A DNA stretch of 64,000 bases from Spirochaetia bacterium (GTDB taxonomy: Bacteria; Spirochaetota; Spirochaetia; Sphaerochaetales; Sphaerochaetaceae), in contig JAKVOU010000001.1 in assembly GCA_022482625.1 (NCBI GenBank), forward strand, positions 2,280,784 to 2,344,783. Reading direction: 5' to 3'. A model generated the notes under the pieces. The model had not been told where the DNA came from, ran no database searches, and worked only from the letters and a program-made list of their open reading frames with translations. Both the position numbers and the translations under genes were made by a program. Shown here piece by piece: positions 2,384 to 56,299 of the stretch; the first letter of the stretch is position 1; each line of letters starts with the position of its first letter.

Positions 2384-4096
2384 ATGAGAATACTCAAGGG
2401 AATTGCTGCTGCAGGGGGGATAGCTTGGGGAAATGCCTTGCTTTTTCTCCATACGGTCCTGGTTGCCGACAAAGAAAAAGTCATGCCTTCACAGGTCGAG
2501 AAAGAATTGGGCCGGCTTGATACTGCAGTTGCAGATGCCTTGCAGGAGATTGAGATAATCATCAAGACTCTTCCTGCTGGTGAGCAACTTGACATCCTGG
2601 AAACCCATAAGATAATGCTTATGGATCCGCAGTATATCAGTGAAATAAAAGATGCTGTAAAGATCAGGAACCTCAATGCTGCTTGGGCTGTGGAAAGCGT
2701 TACAGCTTCCCTTGTTGCAACCTTGGAAGGCAGTGAGGACGTGCTTATCAGCGAACGGGCTGCAGACTTTACTGATGTCGGGCAACATCTGGTTGCCGAG
2801 TTGTTGGGCAAGAAACGACCCTCGCTTGGAAACCTGAATGATGATGTCATCCTTGTGGCCGATTCCCTTCTTCCATCGGAAATGCTTTCCATAGATAAGA
2901 AGCACGTAAAGGCCATAGCTCTTGATACGGGTGGTAGAACCAGCCATGTTGCTATTTTTGCACGTTCCTTTGGAATTCCCACGGTACTTGGACTGGGAAG
3001 TGCAACCCGCAAGCTGCAGAATGGCGACAAGGTCATACTTGACGGCAACAGCGGCCTGTTTTTTATCCGGCCGGAATGGCGGACCGATGAAGAATACAGG
3101 AAACGGGAAAAGGAGTGGGTGGCATACCAGAGGGAACTTTCTTCCATTGCATCACTCCCGTCTGTTTCGCCTGATGGCAGGTCCTATGTGTTGAAGGCCA
3201 ATGTCGAGACCGTAGATGAAATACCCGGGGCCATTGAAAAAGGTGCCGCTGGCATTGGCTTGTTCAGGAGTGAATCTCTCTATTTGCGGACTTCTTCTTT
3301 GCCGACTGAGGAAGAACAGTTCGTGGCTTACAAATCCGTTCTCGCAGCCATGGATGGTTTGCCTGTGACTATCCGTACTATCGATATCGGTGGAGACAAA
3401 GCTGTCACGGGGGTTGGTATTGATGAGGAAAATCCAATTTTGGGGTGGAGGGCTGTACGCTTTTGCCTTGAAAGAAAAGATATCTTCCGCGTACAGCTGA
3501 GAGCTCTTTTGCGAGCTTCTGCTTATGGCAAGTTGCATATCATGTTTCCGATGATCAGCGGTATCGACGAGCTGGACAAGGTTCTGTTTATCCTAGAGCA
3601 AGTCAAGGAAGAGTTGCGGAATTCAAAGGTTCCCTTTGATGAGAACCTTAAGGTCGGCTCAATGATAGAGGTGCCGTCTGCTGCTCTTTGTTCAGATTTC
3701 CTAGCTAGGAAAGTTGATTTCTTTTCTATTGGTACGAATGACCTGATACAATATACGATAGCGGTTGACAGAGGCAATGAAAAAATCGCCTATCTTTATC
3801 AACCGTTTCATCTGGGAGTTCTACGGCTTATCAAAATCATCATTGACAATGCCCATGCGGCCGGTATACCTGTCGGTATGTGTGGTGAAATGGCCAGTGA
3901 TCCCTTGGCTACAGTCTTGCTTGCCGGTCTAGGGCTGGATGAGTTCAGCATGAGCCCCTCGAGCCTCCTGGAAGTACGGAGGTTGCTACGTAATCATACC
4001 TATGCCGAGGCAAAGGAACTTGCAGACGGAGCCTTGAAGCTTTCTTCAGCCAGTATCATTACCAAGTATCTGAAGGATTGGATGAGCCAGCATTGA
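2384..4096 (+). CDS. ptsI: PTS enzyme I (phosphoenolpyruvate-protein phosphotransferase)
   Basis: 570 residues, the usual enzyme I length. It transfers phosphate from PEP to HPr, starting the sugar phosphotransferase cascade in the cytoplasm. Domain order is as expected: HPr-binding helical region, swivelling phosphohistidine domain with TGGRTSHVAIFAR (active His near residue 188), then the PEP-binding barrel with GIGLFRSESLY, IRTIDIGGDK, FSIGTNDLIQYT and VGMCGEMASDP. No HPr or EIIA gene is adjacent. The ATG has no SD and sits at the predicted transcription start, so this may be a leaderless mRNA. The N-terminus MRILKGIAAAGGIAWG aligns with the family start, which supports this codon. Confidence 0.92.
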   Translation: MRILKGIAAAGGIAWGNALLFLHTVLVADKEKVMPSQVEKELGRLDTAVADALQEIEIIIKTLPAGEQLDILETHKIMLMDPQYISEIKDAVKIRNLNAAWAVESVTASLVATLEGSEDVLISERAADFTDVGQHLVAELLGKKRPSLGNLNDDVILVADSLLPSEMLSIDKKHVKAIALDTGGRTSHVAIFARSFGIPTVLGLGSATRKLQNGDKVILDGNSGLFFIRPEWRTDEEYRKREKEWVAYQRELSSIASLPSVSPDGRSYVLKANVETVDEIPGAIEKGAAGIGLFRSESLYLRTSSLPTEEEQFVAYKSVLAAMDGLPVTIRTIDIGGDKAVTGVGIDEENPILGWRAVRFCLERKDIFRVQLRALLRASAYGKLHIMFPMISGIDELDKVLFILEQVKEELRNSKVPFDENLKVGSMIEVPSAALCSDFLARKVDFFSIGTNDLIQYTIAVDRGNEKIAYLYQPFHLGVLRLIKIIIDNAHAAGIPVGMCGEMASDPLATVLLAGLGLDEFSMSPSSLLEVRRLLRNHTYAEAKELADGALKLSSASIITKYLKDWMSQH

Positions 4097-13110: not shown

Positions 13111-13139
13111 TTGCCCGATGACTGGTCCCGTCGTATGAT
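13111..13139 (+). promoter_or_regulatory. Promoter of a leaderless mRNA for the 561-residue orphan
   Basis: TTGCCC (13111-13116), 17-bp spacer, TATGAT (13134-13139). The ATG at 13146 lies exactly 7 nt after the -10, with no SD in between. Confidence 0.6.
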
Positions 13140-13145
13140 GTAGTT

Positions 13146-14831
13146 ATGAAAAACTTGGATGAACTCCAACATCAGCTTGACGATATTATGGCTTCGATTG
13201 ACCTTAGCCGGTTGCGGCAGAGGATGCATGCCTATGCACAGACGCTCAACGTAGAGGCGTGTGCCTGTTTGGTTGATTTTCTGTCTGGTGCTGGTAGCCC
13301 TGCAGGGCAGGAAACTGATGTAAATGTAAAGGATGCCTTGACTTTGCTGGAGGATTGCAGGACCGGCAAAGTATACCTTACGAAGAGATGGAATGAAAAA
13401 GGAGATTGGGCTGATCGTGATGATGAGTATGTAATCAAGGATGAAAATTCTGTCATACCGTTAATTAACCGTGTCATTGATACTGCCGATGTATGTGCAC
13501 AGAATCTGGATTTTGCTTCGGCACTCCAGATTTACTACGGTCTTGCAGATCTTAGCCTTACGGTCATGGATACATACAGTGGTGAGACGTCCTACGGAAT
13601 TGATGAACTGATGGATCTTGACTGCTTTGCCTCGATAGATTTTGCAGTCGTTGGCGGTAATGCTATCTATGCAGCTTACCGGCTGGATGTTTCCCCTATG
13701 CAACGGGCATCGGCCATGGCAGTCTTGGTAAGTTCCCGGCTGTGCCATTTTACTGAATATGAACTATTTCTTGCTTGTGGACATGAACGGTTTGATGGTT
13801 TGCCATCCTTTCTTCCTCATCTGTTCACAGCGTTGGCAAAGACTGGAGGAGACCAGTGTAGAAGTTGGCTTAGGGCCTGTGCTACGACTACGCTGCTCAA
13901 GGAAGGTGCCTTGCTTTATCAGGACGTGCACCCTTCGCTCTGGCGCATGTTGATGCAGAAGCTACTTGAGGAGGACGAACCGGAGGAGGCATTGACCTGT
14001 GGGGACAAGGCCCTTGCTGCACTGCCTGCCGAATTGGTTGAACGGAGCAGGGTTGCAAATCTTTGTTTTAACATTTATCTATTGTTGTCTGGATCACCGT
14101 CCGTGACTGTCGACAATGTGACTACCTTTACTTTTGTGGCCGCACCTCCCGTACCTGATGAGAAAGGCATTCTGTATCTCTTTGAACGTTTTGTCTCCTG
14201 CAGTGATGCACGCTGTTTCTTTTCTCTTTACAATGCAATGGATTCCAGTGGTCCCTACTGGAGTCGAAAGTTGCTTGCTGCCATGCAGACAATTCCAGAT
14301 ACCGGAACCGGATATGATGTTGAGGGCGAATGTACCCACAATGCTATGGAGCCACAGCTAAGGGCTATTTGTTTGTTTCTTCTTGAGCCATCCCAGGAGA
14401 CTTTTGCCACTGTTGCGGCCTTGGGAACAAGGGATGCCTATTTTGAAGGAAACCGAATATTGAATTTCTTTGTGGCTGCCTATGCGCTACAATACCATCC
14501 TGGTGGATGTGCGTTGCATCTACTTTTGCCGGAATTGCAAAACGATGAATATCCTGGGATTTTCAGTAGCCTACGCATTGGAGGAGACGAGGAGTTGGAC
14601 AAAACGATATTGCTGTGGTGCATTCGCCAGATACATAAGATTGTTTCTGCAGTGCTCGGTGACCGGCGTGTAGAGCGATATGGATATGCAGCTATATTGG
14701 TCGTGTCAATAGACCTGATACTCTATGAACGAGGACTCCGTTTTTCCCATACGCAAACGGCTCGCGAATATTATCTCAGTCACTATCCGGGATGCATAGA
14801 ATTTGTGGCGGCCCTAGATGATGCTCTGTGA
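13146..14831 (+). CDS. Conserved-looking hypothetical protein, 561 residues
   Basis: I do not recognise this protein. It is a long soluble-looking sequence with no signal peptide or clear membrane span. It is rich in Leu and Ala helical stretches in the middle and C-terminal parts (for example LMQKLLEEDEPEEALTCGDK), which hints at an alpha-solenoid or TPR-like fold, but no repeat is regular enough to call. Codon use matches the core genome, unlike the AT-rich island that begins just downstream. The start has no SD and coincides with the predicted transcription start. Its only neighbours are rlmB upstream and the island downstream, so context does not suggest a role. Confidence 0.7.
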   Translation: MKNLDELQHQLDDIMASIDLSRLRQRMHAYAQTLNVEACACLVDFLSGAGSPAGQETDVNVKDALTLLEDCRTGKVYLTKRWNEKGDWADRDDEYVIKDENSVIPLINRVIDTADVCAQNLDFASALQIYYGLADLSLTVMDTYSGETSYGIDELMDLDCFASIDFAVVGGNAIYAAYRLDVSPMQRASAMAVLVSSRLCHFTEYELFLACGHERFDGLPSFLPHLFTALAKTGGDQCRSWLRACATTTLLKEGALLYQDVHPSLWRMLMQKLLEEDEPEEALTCGDKALAALPAELVERSRVANLCFNIYLLLSGSPSVTVDNVTTFTFVAAPPVPDEKGILYLFERFVSCSDARCFFSLYNAMDSSGPYWSRKLLAAMQTIPDTGTGYDVEGECTHNAMEPQLRAICLFLLEPSQETFATVAALGTRDAYFEGNRILNFFVAAYALQYHPGGCALHLLLPELQNDEYPGIFSSLRIGGDEELDKTILLWCIRQIHKIVSAVLGDRRVERYGYAAILVVSIDLILYERGLRFSHTQTAREYYLSHYPGCIEFVAALDDAL

Positions 14832-48176: not shown

Positions 48177-49860
48177 TCAGGTTACGTTGAATTCACTTCC
48201 GCCTATGAACTCCCTGATAAGCGAATCGGCTGGGACCAGGTTTTCCGGAATCGGATGCACGATATTGAGGAAGGCAATGAGTCTGCGGGAGATTGCATAG
48301 GCCTGTGAATCTTCTGGCTTTACGGTTTTCAACAGAGGCATTGCCAACGGGCGGAGTACACCTATTTCATAGTCAAGGGCTGAATTCAGCATGGTATCTG
48401 CCTGGTTCTGATAGGGGAATATATGCTTGTTTTCCCCTGCCTGTACGCTGTCCCACATGGTCAGTGTCTTATATGCTGAGGTCTTTCTTGTCCGATAATC
48501 CCTGACGATTCGTCTGAGGATCCGATTATCCGTTGTACTGATCCTGTTATGGTCGTCAATGTTGAGCTGGGTCAGTGCAGAGATATAGATCTTGAATATC
48601 TTTTCTTTTTCAAGAGGTGGCACAAGGGCTGGGTTGAGCCCGTGTATACCCTCGATGATCAATATGGTATCCTTGTCCATCCTGACAGGAGGATTTGGGT
48701 ACATTCTTGTGGCTGTCGGAAAATCAAATGACGGAATCTTTACTTTTTCCCCTTCATAGAGGTTCTCAAGATCGCTGCGGAACTGCGCTACATCCAATGC
48801 TTCCAGACTTTCAAAATCTTTCTTACCGTCTGATCCCACAGGAATTTCTGCTGCGGGTCTGTAATAGTCGTCCAATGTTATCTTGATCGGTTTCTTGCCT
48901 GCCTAGACGTAATTGGATACCTAATTTATAGGCAAAGGTCGTTTTGCCTGAGGAAGAAGGTCCTGCAATGAATATGGCCTTTACTTGTTCACGTGCAAGG
49001 ATCTTGTCTGCAATCTGGGATATTTTTTTTTGCTGGAGTGTTTCTGCAAGCCTTATGTAATCAGTTATCTTTCCTTCAATGCACAGATTATTGAGCTTGC
49101 CAAGGGATCTCATGTCCAGCATATTGTTCCATTTCCTATATTCGCTGAAGACTGAGAACAGCAGAGGATTGTCCTTGAATTCCTGGAGCTGGGTAAAATC
49201 ACTCGATCTGGGATAGCGGAGCAACATACCGCATTTCTTATAAGGTTGGAGCTTCCATAGGCTGAGTATTCCGGTTCTGTCTACCAGAGGCTCGTACCCT
49301 AGGTCCATGAAATCTTCCAGCTTGTAAAGTGCAACTACCGGTTCATTCTGAAATTTCAGCAGTTGGACCGTTTCCATTGCTTCTCGGTGTAAGAAATATT
49401 CCATGGCTTTTTTATATGGAGCCCTACAGAAATCAATCGGTAGATTCTTGTCAGCTATTTTTTGCATCGTTTGGGAAAGCCTTTCGATGTCTTCTTCCGC
49501 AACGCTATCTGTCTTGTCATAGTAGAAGAAATAACCATCTCCCAGGCTATGGCTGATCAGTAGCTTCCGATCCGGAAAGACAAGTTGTGAGGCATAGCAG
49601 AGCAAGAAGCAGATGCTATGCCTATAGGTCCTTTTTCCAAGACTGGAGAAAAGTGGAATAGCCTTGATTTCAGCGTCATTGACCAGATGGTAGGACAGAG
49701 GTACTACCTCATCGTTGACACTGGCAGCAACAATGGGATTCTCGAGGTACGTCTTGTTCAAGTTGACTGACAGTCCTTCCAGTGTTTCTCTGACAGTGTT
49801 GCCGATTACTGTAGCATATGTGCTGTTTTCATATGTGATATTGATAGTTTTGCCTTGCAT
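48177..49860 (-). pseudogene. Uridine-kinase-like nucleoside kinase, frameshifted
   Basis: Two overlapping minus-strand frames form one protein of about 560 residues. The first (from ATG 49860) has a TGS-like N-domain, a ThrRS/AlaRS-like segment with SHSLGDGYFFYYD, and Walker A AGPSSSGKTTFAYKLGIQLR. The second supplies the rest of the kinase: DDYYRPAAEIPVG, LIIEGIHGLNPAL and RRIVRDYRTR. Removing one base of the CC at 48902-48903 gives the family-like junction IQLRLAGKKPIKITLDDYY. There is no slippery sequence, so this is a mutation or sequencing indel. The ATG is predicted leaderless. Confidence 0.82.
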
Positions 49861-49866
49861 ACATCA

Positions 49867-49895
49867 AGTATAGGCTTGGTTTTCCAGAACTGCAA
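49867..49895 (-). promoter_or_regulatory. Leaderless promoter of the nucleoside kinase gene
   Basis: Minus strand: TTGCAG (49895-49890), 17-bp spacer, TATACT (49872-49867). The ATG starts at 49860, 7 nt after the -10; no SD is present. Confidence 0.6.
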
Positions 49896-49919
49896 GTTTT
49901 GGTTTGTGTTGTATTGTTG

Positions 49920-49948
49920 TTGACTAGGCATGCATGTACCTGTACAGT
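49920..49948 (+). promoter_or_regulatory. Leaderless promoter of the AOR-like gene
   Basis: TTGACT (49920-49925), 17-bp spacer, TACAGT (49943-49948). The ATG starts at 49955, 7 nt after the -10; no SD is present. It is divergent from the promoter at 49867-49895. Confidence 0.6.
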
Positions 49949-49954
49949 TGAAGC

Positions 49955-51628
49955 ATGTTAGGAAAGCATACCAAGGGATATCCATACAGGCAGAGATTTG
50001 TCCTTGTCGTTGATCTTTCGAATGATACCTTTTCCAGAGTCGAGCTGGACCCAGAGGTTGCAAAGGCTCAGTTTGGGGGCAGAGGACTGGCGACTTGGCT
50101 ATGGAAAGAATACAGTGATTTGAAGAAATTGGACAAGGATAGCTTCTACAGTGGCAATGCCATTGCCATTTGTCTGGGAGCCGGCAGTGACTTGGGTTTG
50201 GATCAGTGCAAGGGAGCCTGCTGTGTCACGCTGTCCATGCAGACACACCATCTTTCTATCTGTCCTTTCCAGTCGGCATCCCTTGCCTATGCACTTTCCG
50301 GTGCAGGTTATTGTGGCGTGGTTCTGAAAAACAGGGCAAGGCGGCTTACCCGTGTGTCAGTGACACCTTCAGGAGTCGGCTTTACCATAGATGATGAAAT
50401 GCATCTTATGATGAATGAAGAAGTTGCACGCCGGTGTCAGGAAGTTTCCTGTGTCATTTCAATCGGTCCGGCCGGAGAGAGAGGGGTTCCTTTTGCTTCC
50501 CTTGCGGTAAATGGAAAGAATTTTGGTCGTGGTGGCATAGGTGCTGTCTTTGGTAACAAGAATCTCAAGTTGCTCAGTCTCGATGCCGATGAACAGATCA
50601 GGCCAATGTATTTTGACCATAAGGCTGATGAGCTTGACAAAATCCTTCAGATGGTTCCTGTGGAAAGAGATAATTTGCTTCAGGTCGCTGACAGGAAAGG
50701 TTGGGCTGCCGTAGAGGGATTTACCTATCGGCGTAATCCGAGGATGTGGGGCTTGGGGGGCATGCCGTTGACGAAGGATGCTCCTGTTGCATGGGAAGTC
50801 GCTTTGGCTTTGGGTGCCAATCTTGGAATCTACGATTGGCATAAAGTTGCAGTACTGGAAAACGCCTGTTGTTCTTATGGACTTGATCCTATCTCTACAG
50901 GTGGTATATTGGCTTGGATTGCTGGGGCTGAGTCAAAGGGTTTGATAGACTTGAACCAATGCAATGAAACAGACAAGGTCAAGCTTTTTGCTGATATTAT
51001 CAAAGGTATAGGCTTGGGCAAAGGCTGTGGTAGCCGCTTTTCGCAGCCGTTAACGGTACTTTGTGCTGAATTCGGAAATAAGGAAGGCGATTTTTCATCA
51101 TATGGAGAAGAATTGATGCCCTTTGATCTGAGAGGATTGCCATGCTATGCCTTATCCGTGGCAATGGGCGATGACACCTTGGTACCATGGGAACTTTTCT
51201 CTACGGTCCATGGTGATGATACTGCCCGGTTGCTATTGCTTTCACAGAGTCTCCGACGATTGACAGAAAGTTTGGGGATGGAATGGAACCAACTGCTTCG
51301 CATCCTTGCCAAGCACTATCCTGGCAAAGGGCATCTGAAGAGGAACCGTCTATTGCAGGGACTTGCCCTTTGCTGCAGCTGCTGTGAAGGCTATGAATGG
51401 TCCATTGCAGATCTTCTTGCCTTCGGGCAACGTATCCTTCTCCAGGAATTTGAGCTGATGCAATCCTTAAGCGGTGGTTTCAAGCCATCGAATGATTCGA
51501 TTCCCCAATATTTTCAAGTCGAAGGGGAAAGTGCATGCAAAGATGGCAAGCTTGTACATCTGGGAGGAGTACTGGACGAGTATCTTTTCCTTTTGAAGCA
51601 TATTACCGTCCTGCCATGGGCAAGGTGA
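49955..51628 (+). CDS. Aldehyde:ferredoxin oxidoreductase homologue lacking Fe-S ligands
   Basis: 557 residues, slightly shorter than typical AOR. The N-domain has FGGRGLATWLWKEY and GRGGIGAVFGNKNLKLL, and later CCSYGLDPISTGGILAW and WSIADLLAFGQRILLQEFEL align with AOR. At the place of the CxxCxxxC cluster motif the sequence reads RRNPRMWGLGGMPL, and the later ligand Cys (SLGLC in the family) is Met in SLGM. An unusual ALCCSCCEG lies nearer the C-terminus. A tungstopterin site without its [4Fe-4S] cluster would be atypical, so this is probably not a standard AOR. It overlaps the convergent phosphoesterase gene by 26 bp. Confidence 0.75.
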   Translation: MLGKHTKGYPYRQRFVLVVDLSNDTFSRVELDPEVAKAQFGGRGLATWLWKEYSDLKKLDKDSFYSGNAIAICLGAGSDLGLDQCKGACCVTLSMQTHHLSICPFQSASLAYALSGAGYCGVVLKNRARRLTRVSVTPSGVGFTIDDEMHLMMNEEVARRCQEVSCVISIGPAGERGVPFASLAVNGKNFGRGGIGAVFGNKNLKLLSLDADEQIRPMYFDHKADELDKILQMVPVERDNLLQVADRKGWAAVEGFTYRRNPRMWGLGGMPLTKDAPVAWEVALALGANLGIYDWHKVAVLENACCSYGLDPISTGGILAWIAGAESKGLIDLNQCNETDKVKLFADIIKGIGLGKGCGSRFSQPLTVLCAEFGNKEGDFSSYGEELMPFDLRGLPCYALSVAMGDDTLVPWELFSTVHGDDTARLLLLSQSLRRLTESLGMEWNQLLRILAKHYPGKGHLKRNRLLQGLALCCSCCEGYEWSIADLLAFGQRILLQEFELMQSLSGGFKPSNDSIPQYFQVEGESACKDGKLVHLGGVLDEYLFLLKHITVLPWAR

Positions 51629-52130
51629 GCGTAGATATGTTGCCTCCGTACAATTCCCTGAGGGCCAATTCCTGCTCATTCATGACAATATAAGAGGCAC
51701 CGCACTTACCGCGGGGATATGCCAGGCTGCCAGGGTTTGCATTGATGATCCCCTTCCCGTCGATGAAGAGCTGTTCCCTGTGGGTATGTCCACTGAAGAA
51801 GACGTCTCCGGGTTTCAGATGGATGGGAAGGTCCGATGGCCTTCTGTAGTGGTGTCCATGGGTAAGGATGACGAGCCTACCTGCAAATGTAAGGGAATTG
51901 AGCAGAGGCGGCACAGGGATACCTGCTATTGCATAATCATAGCCACTGTCGCAATTGCCTCTGACCAATGTAAGCTGACTGATGTGCTGTTTCAGTAATT
52001 TTTCGAAGTCTTCACTGTCAGGGCAGAAATCTCCAAGGACAAGTATGGGATTGTTTCCGGCTTTTCGTACGAAATCCCTGAAACTGTAGAAATCTCCATG
52101 GACGTCTGAGCAGATATATAAGCTTTGCAT
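51603..52130 (-). CDS. YfcE/MJ0936-type metallophosphoesterase
   Basis: 175 residues with the metal-binding series SDVHGDF, LGDFCPDS, VRGNCDSG, LTHGHHY and FSGHTHREQL, and the family-typical NPGSLAYPRG. Such enzymes are cytoplasmic phosphodiesterases of broad specificity. No SD precedes the ATG; a promoter places transcription start at the A of ATG, so the mRNA is predicted leaderless. Confidence 0.9.
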   Translation of the reverse strand: MQSLYICSDVHGDFYSFRDFVRKAGNNPILVLGDFCPDSEDFEKLLKQHISQLTLVRGNCDSGYDYAIAGIPVPPLLNSLTFAGRLVILTHGHHYRRPSDLPIHLKPGDVFFSGHTHREQLFIDGKGIINANPGSLAYPRGKCGASYIVMNEQELALRELYGGNISTLTLPMAGR

Positions 52131-52136
52131 GACTTG

Positions 52137-52165
52137 AGTGTAGCACTGACATCACATCGCGTGAA
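52137..52165 (-). promoter_or_regulatory. Leaderless promoter of the YfcE-like gene
   Basis: Minus strand: TTCACG (52165-52160), 17-bp spacer, TACACT (52142-52137). The ATG begins at 52130, 7 nt after the -10; no SD is present. Confidence 0.55.
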
Positions 52166-55599: not shown

Positions 55600-56166
55600 T
55601 TATTTCTGTGCTACTACCATGCGCTGTCGAAAATAGGTTTCCAAGGCTATCCGTGCAGAAGGAAATGCAAGTGGAATGGCTTCTATGGCTTCAAAGGTGT
55701 CTATCGGACATAGCCTGTAACCTTTGATTTCATCAGCTTCTTCTGGTCGAAGGGATGAAATAAAATCGGATTTCCCGACATCAACATTAGCACTGAAGAA
55801 CATATCACAGGTAATATATGTGATATCCTTATATTCATATGTATTGGGGGCACTGGTCAGATAATGCAGGTTTTGTGGTATCAAAGATACTTCTTCCCTA
55901 CATTCCCGAATCGCAGCTTGTTCGGCACTTTCTCCTGGATCGACGAATCCTCCCGGCAAGGCAAGATAGCCCTTGCGGGGATTCCTTCCTCTGGTGACCA
56001 GCAGTACCTGTTCTTTGCCTTGCTTCTGAAAGGTAAGGATCAAGGCTACGGCGGCAGCCACATTGTTGTAAAGAGTCAGTCCGCAAGCACTGCAGACCCA
56101 TTTTTTGTTGTCTTTGTAAGACAGCATCTGTTTTCCGCAATCTGGGCAAAAAGTCAAGTTTTTCAT
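55600..56166 (-). CDS. NUDIX hydrolase with N-terminal zinc ribbon
   Basis: 188 residues. An N-terminal zinc ribbon (FCPDCGKQM and WVCSACG) leads into the NUDIX fold with GGFVDPGESAEQAAIRECRE followed by EV, which fits the box GX5EX7REUXEEXGU except for Ser at the final Gly. The ribbon plus NUDIX layout recalls NudC-type NAD/NADH pyrophosphatases, but the protein is shorter and lacks their SQPWPFPxS motif. Start chosen at ATG 56166 because the ribbon begins there; the longer frame overlaps the symporter gene. The SD is weak. Confidence 0.82.
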   Translation of the reverse strand: MKNLTFCPDCGKQMLSYKDNKKWVCSACGLTLYNNVAAAVALILTFQKQGKEQVLLVTRGRNPRKGYLALPGGFVDPGESAEQAAIRECREEVSLIPQNLHYLTSAPNTYEYKDITYITCDMFFSANVDVGKSDFISSLRPEEADEIKGYRLCPIDTFEAIEAIPLAFPSARIALETYFRQRMVVAQK

Positions 56167-56299
56167 GACTTTGATGATAATCCAATGTACAGGCAATGGA
56201 AAGCAGGGGAATCTCGTGTTGTCTGGGGAAAAAATATCCGGACAACGGCAAGTACCGTTGTACCGGAATTTCATTTCAATATGAAAAGGATCTTTTTCT

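Follow-up and report, generated by a model that had tools for sequence, protein, structure and literature searches.

Promoters ending next to the start codon and predicted leaderless genes in a Sphaerochaetaceae genome

The 64,000-nucleotide stretch of DNA analyzed here (the window) carries six genes with a promoter-like pair of boxes directly in front of the ATG (Table 1). Five of these, all lacking a Shine-Dalgarno (SD) sequence, had been predicted to share one geometry, namely a −35 hexamer, a 17-bp spacer, a −10 hexamer, exactly 6 nt, and the ATG, and direct reading agrees for all five, as it does for the NUDIX gene at 56166, cited as a weaker case, in which the −10 box lies one base further away (8 nt from the ATG). 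The absence of an SD holds as well, the longest SD match in the cited genes being 3 to 4 nt, those at 52130 and 56166 included. The base before the ATG is a pyrimidine in 6/6 window genes by direct reading. Two of the genes are divergent within 94 bp, as originally described, and in this intergenic stretch (49861-49954) the two promoters point away from each other, their −35 boxes lying 24 bp apart.

Table 1. Genes and promoter elements of the window
Feature	Position	Strand	Basis
PTS enzyme I (ptsI), 570 aa, predicted leaderless	2384..4096	+	Pfam PEP-utilisers N, mobile, and C domains
ptsI promoter	−35 TTTACA 2349-2354, 17 bp, −10 TACTAT 2372-2377, tgttat, ATG 2384	+	sequence
561-aa protein, predicted leaderless	13146..14831	+	no match in Pfam and NCBIfam scans
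13146 promoter	−35 TTGCCC 13111-13116, 17 bp, −10 TATGAT 13134-13139, gtagtt, ATG 13146	+	sequence
Uridine-kinase-like protein, N-terminal part, 345 aa, predicted leaderless	48823..49860	-	frame broken near residue 321
Kinase promoter	−35 TTGCAG 49890-49895, 17 bp, −10 TATACT 49867-49872, tgatgt, ATG 49860	-	sequence
Aldehyde-ferredoxin-oxidoreductase-like (AOR-like) protein, 557 aa, predicted leaderless	49955..51628	+	Pfam AFOR_N, AFOR_C
AOR-like promoter	−35 TTGACT 49920-49925, 17 bp, −10 TACAGT 49943-49948, tgaagc, ATG 49955	+	sequence
Metallophosphoesterase (YfcE-like), 175 aa, predicted leaderless	51603..52130	-	Pfam Metallophos_2
Metallophosphoesterase promoter	−35 TTCACG 52160-52165, 17 bp, −10 TACACT 52137-52142, caagtc, ATG 52130	-	sequence
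Zn-ribbon NUDIX hydrolase, 188 aa, leaderless status uncertain	55600..56166	-	Pfam NUDIX
NUDIX promoter, weaker	−35 TTTCCA 56197-56202, 17 bp, −10 TATCAT 56174-56179, caaagtc (7 nt), ATG 56166	-	sequence

With respect to the gene products, alignment places the ptsI start at 2384 in agreement with the starts of its orthologues. The uridine-kinase-like gene (48177-49860, minus strand) is frameshifted directly after its Walker-A motif, and the rest of the gene (48177-48875) has a Pfam PRK match; relatives have a single frame of ~565 aa, and the frameshift may reflect a true pseudogene or a sequencing error. The AOR-like protein shows just ~36% identity even to same-genus relatives and may be a diverged, non-canonical AOR, and its use as a query against the genome contigs (genome_contigs) returned no relatives. 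The kinase/AOR/metallophosphoesterase neighborhood is retained in G001, G002, G003, and G005.

The genome measures 3.47 Mb and yields five 16S rRNA matches. The 3' end of the 16S rRNA reads GGATCACCTCCTTTCT, with an intact anti-SD, indicating that leaderless-type genes are exceptions in an SD-using genome. The closest PtsI relatives are those of Spirochaetaceae bacterium 5_8_m_bin3 (66%) and Pleomorphochaeta sp. (64%), followed by Sphaerochaetaceae bacteria, which makes the genome a probable representative of the Sphaerochaetaceae. An archaeal origin, leaderless genes being usual in archaea, is excluded by bacterial-type DnaK, Rho, and PtsI together with the bacterial anti-SD end of the 16S rRNA; an archaeal SSU Rfam search was uninformative, since the model also matches bacterial sequences.

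The check proposed with the original prediction, a genome-wide comparison with shuffled upstream sequences, was run on about half of the genome (a discovery set of 1.2 Mb and a held-out set of a further 0.4 Mb, 1.6 Mb in total) and revealed strong enrichment of the geometry in SD-less genes. Open reading frames were called by in-frame hexamer score, with the upstream-most acceptable ATG taken as the start and the −10 box ignored. Genes and starts come from this simple, purpose-made caller, so that single genes may have a wrong start (seen at L030 and L043), and the 52130 site is absent from its list. With the window included, TANNNT ends 7 nt before the ATG in 22/125 SD-less genes versus ~2.5 per other position, the SD-less class being fuzzy in that 4-nt "SD" matches include chance ones. 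The same spike is found in the discovery set without the window (18/113 versus a background of 2.0), in the held-out set (6/41 versus 1.1), and in G005, from another genus of the same family (10/46 versus 0.72). Over the 1.6 Mb, window excluded, 24/154 SD-less genes carry the box at 7 nt, against 3.5 ± 1.8 expected and a maximum of 8 in 200 dinucleotide shuffles. Regions of Escherichia coli K-12 put through the identical pipeline gave 0/167, and internal in-frame ATGs, used as a control, 85/8373 (1.0%). The gene-level signal is weak in G023 and G025 (200 kb each).

When both boxes are scored as a strong composite promoter, the −10 ends at 7 nt in 34 and at 8 nt in 15 of the 723 ORFs with >40 nt of free upstream sequence (window excluded), and at each of the neighboring positions (3-6 and 9-14 nt) in only 0-4 of them. 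The claim that the −10 box ends exactly 7 nt before the ATG thus describes the main genome peak, but 8 nt is also a real, second peak (~40% of the first). The excess at 7-8 nt over neighboring positions amounts to 58.5/1071 genes, or 5.5%, which is probably an undercount because TANNNT was the sole motif scored; the value is 7.8% when only genes with >40 nt free upstream are counted.

The box behaves as part of a promoter. In SD-less genes with the box, the sequence at exactly 17 bp upstream averages 3.3/6 matches to TTGACA, versus 1.0-1.9 at other spacings, and TTG occupies this −35 position in 54% of box genes versus 2% of genes without the box. Among 24 unique genes picked by −10 position alone, with duplicates removed, T, T, and G stand at −35, −34, and −33 in 21, 20, and 15, respectively. 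Sigma-70 start points usually combine a −1 pyrimidine with a +1 purine. A pyrimidine precedes the ATG in 37/40 box genes (T 18, C 19, A 3, G 0) versus 216/360 (60%) SD genes (P = 2e-5). These genes combine a TTGACA-like −35 at 16-18 bp from a TATAAT-like −10 with a −1 pyrimidine and a +1 purine, as expected of sigma-70-type promoters. The locked −35 and the −1 pyrimidine indicate that the box is best read as a promoter from which transcription would start on the A of the ATG.

The box is also tied to the mode of translation. It is found in only 6/360 genes with an SD of ≥5 nt versus 24/154 SD-less genes (Fisher's exact test, P = 7e-9). By start codon, it lies at 7 nt in 48/696 ATG, 0/215 GTG, and 8/465 TTG starts, with backgrounds of 21, 5, and 11, so that GTG starts show no spike and TTG starts remain at background level. 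A comparison of early-codon composition between predicted leaderless and SD genes brought out nothing notable.

Taken together, the cited genes and the genome-wide set are most probably leaderless genes (probability about 0.9), as judged from sequence patterns. In this reading, an ordinary promoter of the sigma-70 type (TTGACA-like, 17 bp, TATACT-like) ends 6-7 nt before the ATG, RNA polymerase would begin with the A of the start codon or the base just before it, and the predicted mRNA would have neither a 5' untranslated region nor an SD. The ribosome would then recognize the 5'-terminal AUG, presumably by 70S-type initiation, which is established for leaderless mRNAs elsewhere.

Genes can carry several promoters, and the cited ones might be secondary to others further upstream that yield the main, leadered transcripts. 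We consider this improbable: the cited genes lack the SD that a longer leader would need, the 94-bp intergenic stretch is filled by its two promoters and the 24 bp between them, and the enrichment is located in SD-less genes. It is very improbable that the box is a real promoter but the ribosome uses a later start codon of the frame, one preceded by an SD, the cited first codons then being untranslated leader. Start codons were set by rule here and some automated starts are plainly wrong, but the cited ATGs agree with alignments of the N termini (PtsI MRILKGIAA..., metallophosphoesterase M..L.ICSDVHG, NUDIX MKNLTFCPDCG), and the spike is ATG-specific, whereas a downstream start would predict no phasing to these ATGs. 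A role of the AT-rich box in translation (S1 or an A/U-rich enhancer), or its origin in plain composition, is hardly credible, since, although A/U-rich stretches do precede starts in SD-poor bacteria (PMC5397173), neither shuffles nor neighboring positions reproduce the box, and both the 17-bp lock to a −35 motif and the pyrimidine at −1 speak against these readings.

The leaderless reading was said to cover diverse enzymes, and the 40 candidates scanned against Pfam do cover varied products, with no product class prominent by eye. These include RNase H, an HhH-GPD glycosylase, tRNA and rRNA methyltransferases, and an HflX-type GTPase, as well as signal peptidase, rhomboid, S41 peptidase, carbohydrate kinase, and transporters, and regulators of the LacI, TetR, MarR, and Crp types. 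The occurrence of predicted leaderless mRNAs in diverse genes, about 5.5% of this genome's genes, is supported.

Outside the window, we observe that a multi-copy IS1595-family transposase (L196:4662-5762, minus strand; L328-L336) has a leaderless-type promoter of its own (TTGAAG-17-TATACT-caacat-ATG), which sits just within the terminal repeat of the element in the copies read, one copy having TACACT. Such a promoter could keep host read-through transcripts untranslated. Two near-alike 481-aa genes (L212:10313-11758 and L213:12953-14398), the former with a Pfam PRiA4_ORF3 match, both have the leaderless-type promoter TTGACA-16-TATGAT/TATGCT-accttc-ATG.

The promoters were also compared across relatives. 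At ptsI, a near-leaderless promoter, with a predicted leader of 0-4 nt, is found in 19/19 loci (L066-L084; 18 orthologues and the window's own), each with a TTGACA/TTTACA-like and a TATAGT/TATGAT-like box separated by 17-18 bp, the second of which ends 7-11 nt ahead of the start codon (a GTG in one of the 19). The orthologues come from the same genus and, beyond it, from further families of the class and are 42-66% identical to the window protein. For the kinase, the −10 box stands at 7-8 nt in six genomes (G001, G002, G003, G005, G007, and G010), and other relatives have SD-like starts. Metallophosphoesterase orthologues in G004 and G008 keep the geometry of 17 bp and 6 nt. The 13146 protein has a homologue in only 1 of 20 relatives (G002, 25% identity), and there the gene is preceded by TTGCCA-17-TACACT, 7 nt before the ATG. 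AOR-like orthologues in G001 and G003 have a TATAAT ending 11 nt before the ATG (predicted 4-nt leader), and both same-genus NUDIX orthologues have an SD-like stretch in place of the box. Exact spacing thus drifts across relatives, but the near-leaderless placement at ptsI is deeply conserved. Between this genome and G005, 2/49 orthologue pairs are positive in both (P = 0.14), which is in the expected direction in a small sample. At the class level, TTGAC-N18-TANNNT-N6-ATG has 399 matches in 31 genomes, 23 of them in this genome. The controls gave 68 (N3 spacing decoy), 66 (GTG in place of ATG), and 28 (reversed pattern). All are whole-genome counts, at gene starts or not, summed over genomes.

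Leaderless genes, a minority route to protein synthesis, are already known, also in Spirochaetes, and the present case is of the same kind and well supported. Leaderless transcripts are far commoner in Mycobacterium tuberculosis, where they also use GTG starts, whereas the signal here is confined to ATG. For that species, transcripts beginning at the start codon have been described (PMC3898074, PMC4633059). Zheng et al. (2011) defined TA-led genes by a TANNNT ~12 bp upstream of the start and no SD, took them as leaderless, and reported them in 6/18 Spirochaetes genomes, with a mean of 3.9% (1.8-6.9%), against averages of 19-39% in Actinobacteria and Deinococcus-Thermus (PMC3160421). Our set is alike in the placement of TANNNT, the absence of an SD, and the leaderless reading, having a −10 with a predicted start on the start codon and an excess over dinucleotide shuffles; it differs in coming from a Sphaerochaetaceae-like genome, where the signal serves ~5.5% of genes, depends on an ATG start, is excluded from SD genes, and goes with a −35 at 17 bp and a pyrimidine at −1. 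The original suggestion that leaderless mRNAs are frequent in this lineage is borne out as enrichment, but at a level well under those averages. In Deinococcus-Thermus, an ORF-adjacent TANNNT −10 drives leaderless expression of about one-third of genes, with the spacing required and the −35 helpful but not required (PMC12340547). The ORF-adjacent −10 is common to both, and in the present genome it usually comes with a −35 at a constant distance of 17 bp. In Leptospira interrogans, which belongs to the same phylum in the wide sense and to another class, a 2017 dRNA-seq study identified ~440 mRNAs with a leader of <10 nt, half of them <2 nt (PMC5243855); leaders were measured there and are predicted here. 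Among the papers searched, we found none joining leaderless genes with Sphaerochaeta, and, judged by titles and abstracts, none of relevance that combined leaderless with ptsI or with transposase. What sets the present case apart is its regular −35, its confinement to ATG, and the deep conservation at ptsI.

These results put predicted leaderless expression at ~5.5% of genes and describe its strict anatomy in a lineage for which we found no earlier report. They are of practical use for better start-site annotation, because SD-based callers can miss such starts. The leaderless-type signal extends across the class, and ptsI, whose product is the gateway enzyme of sugar uptake, heads the list of candidates. 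We put forward, as an unlikely idea, that near-leaderless expression of ptsI is kept across families because it ties PTS levels to ribosome states or growth phases favoring 5'-terminal AUGs. If this were true, the leaderless set would be a translation-level regulon and not a by-product of compact promoters.
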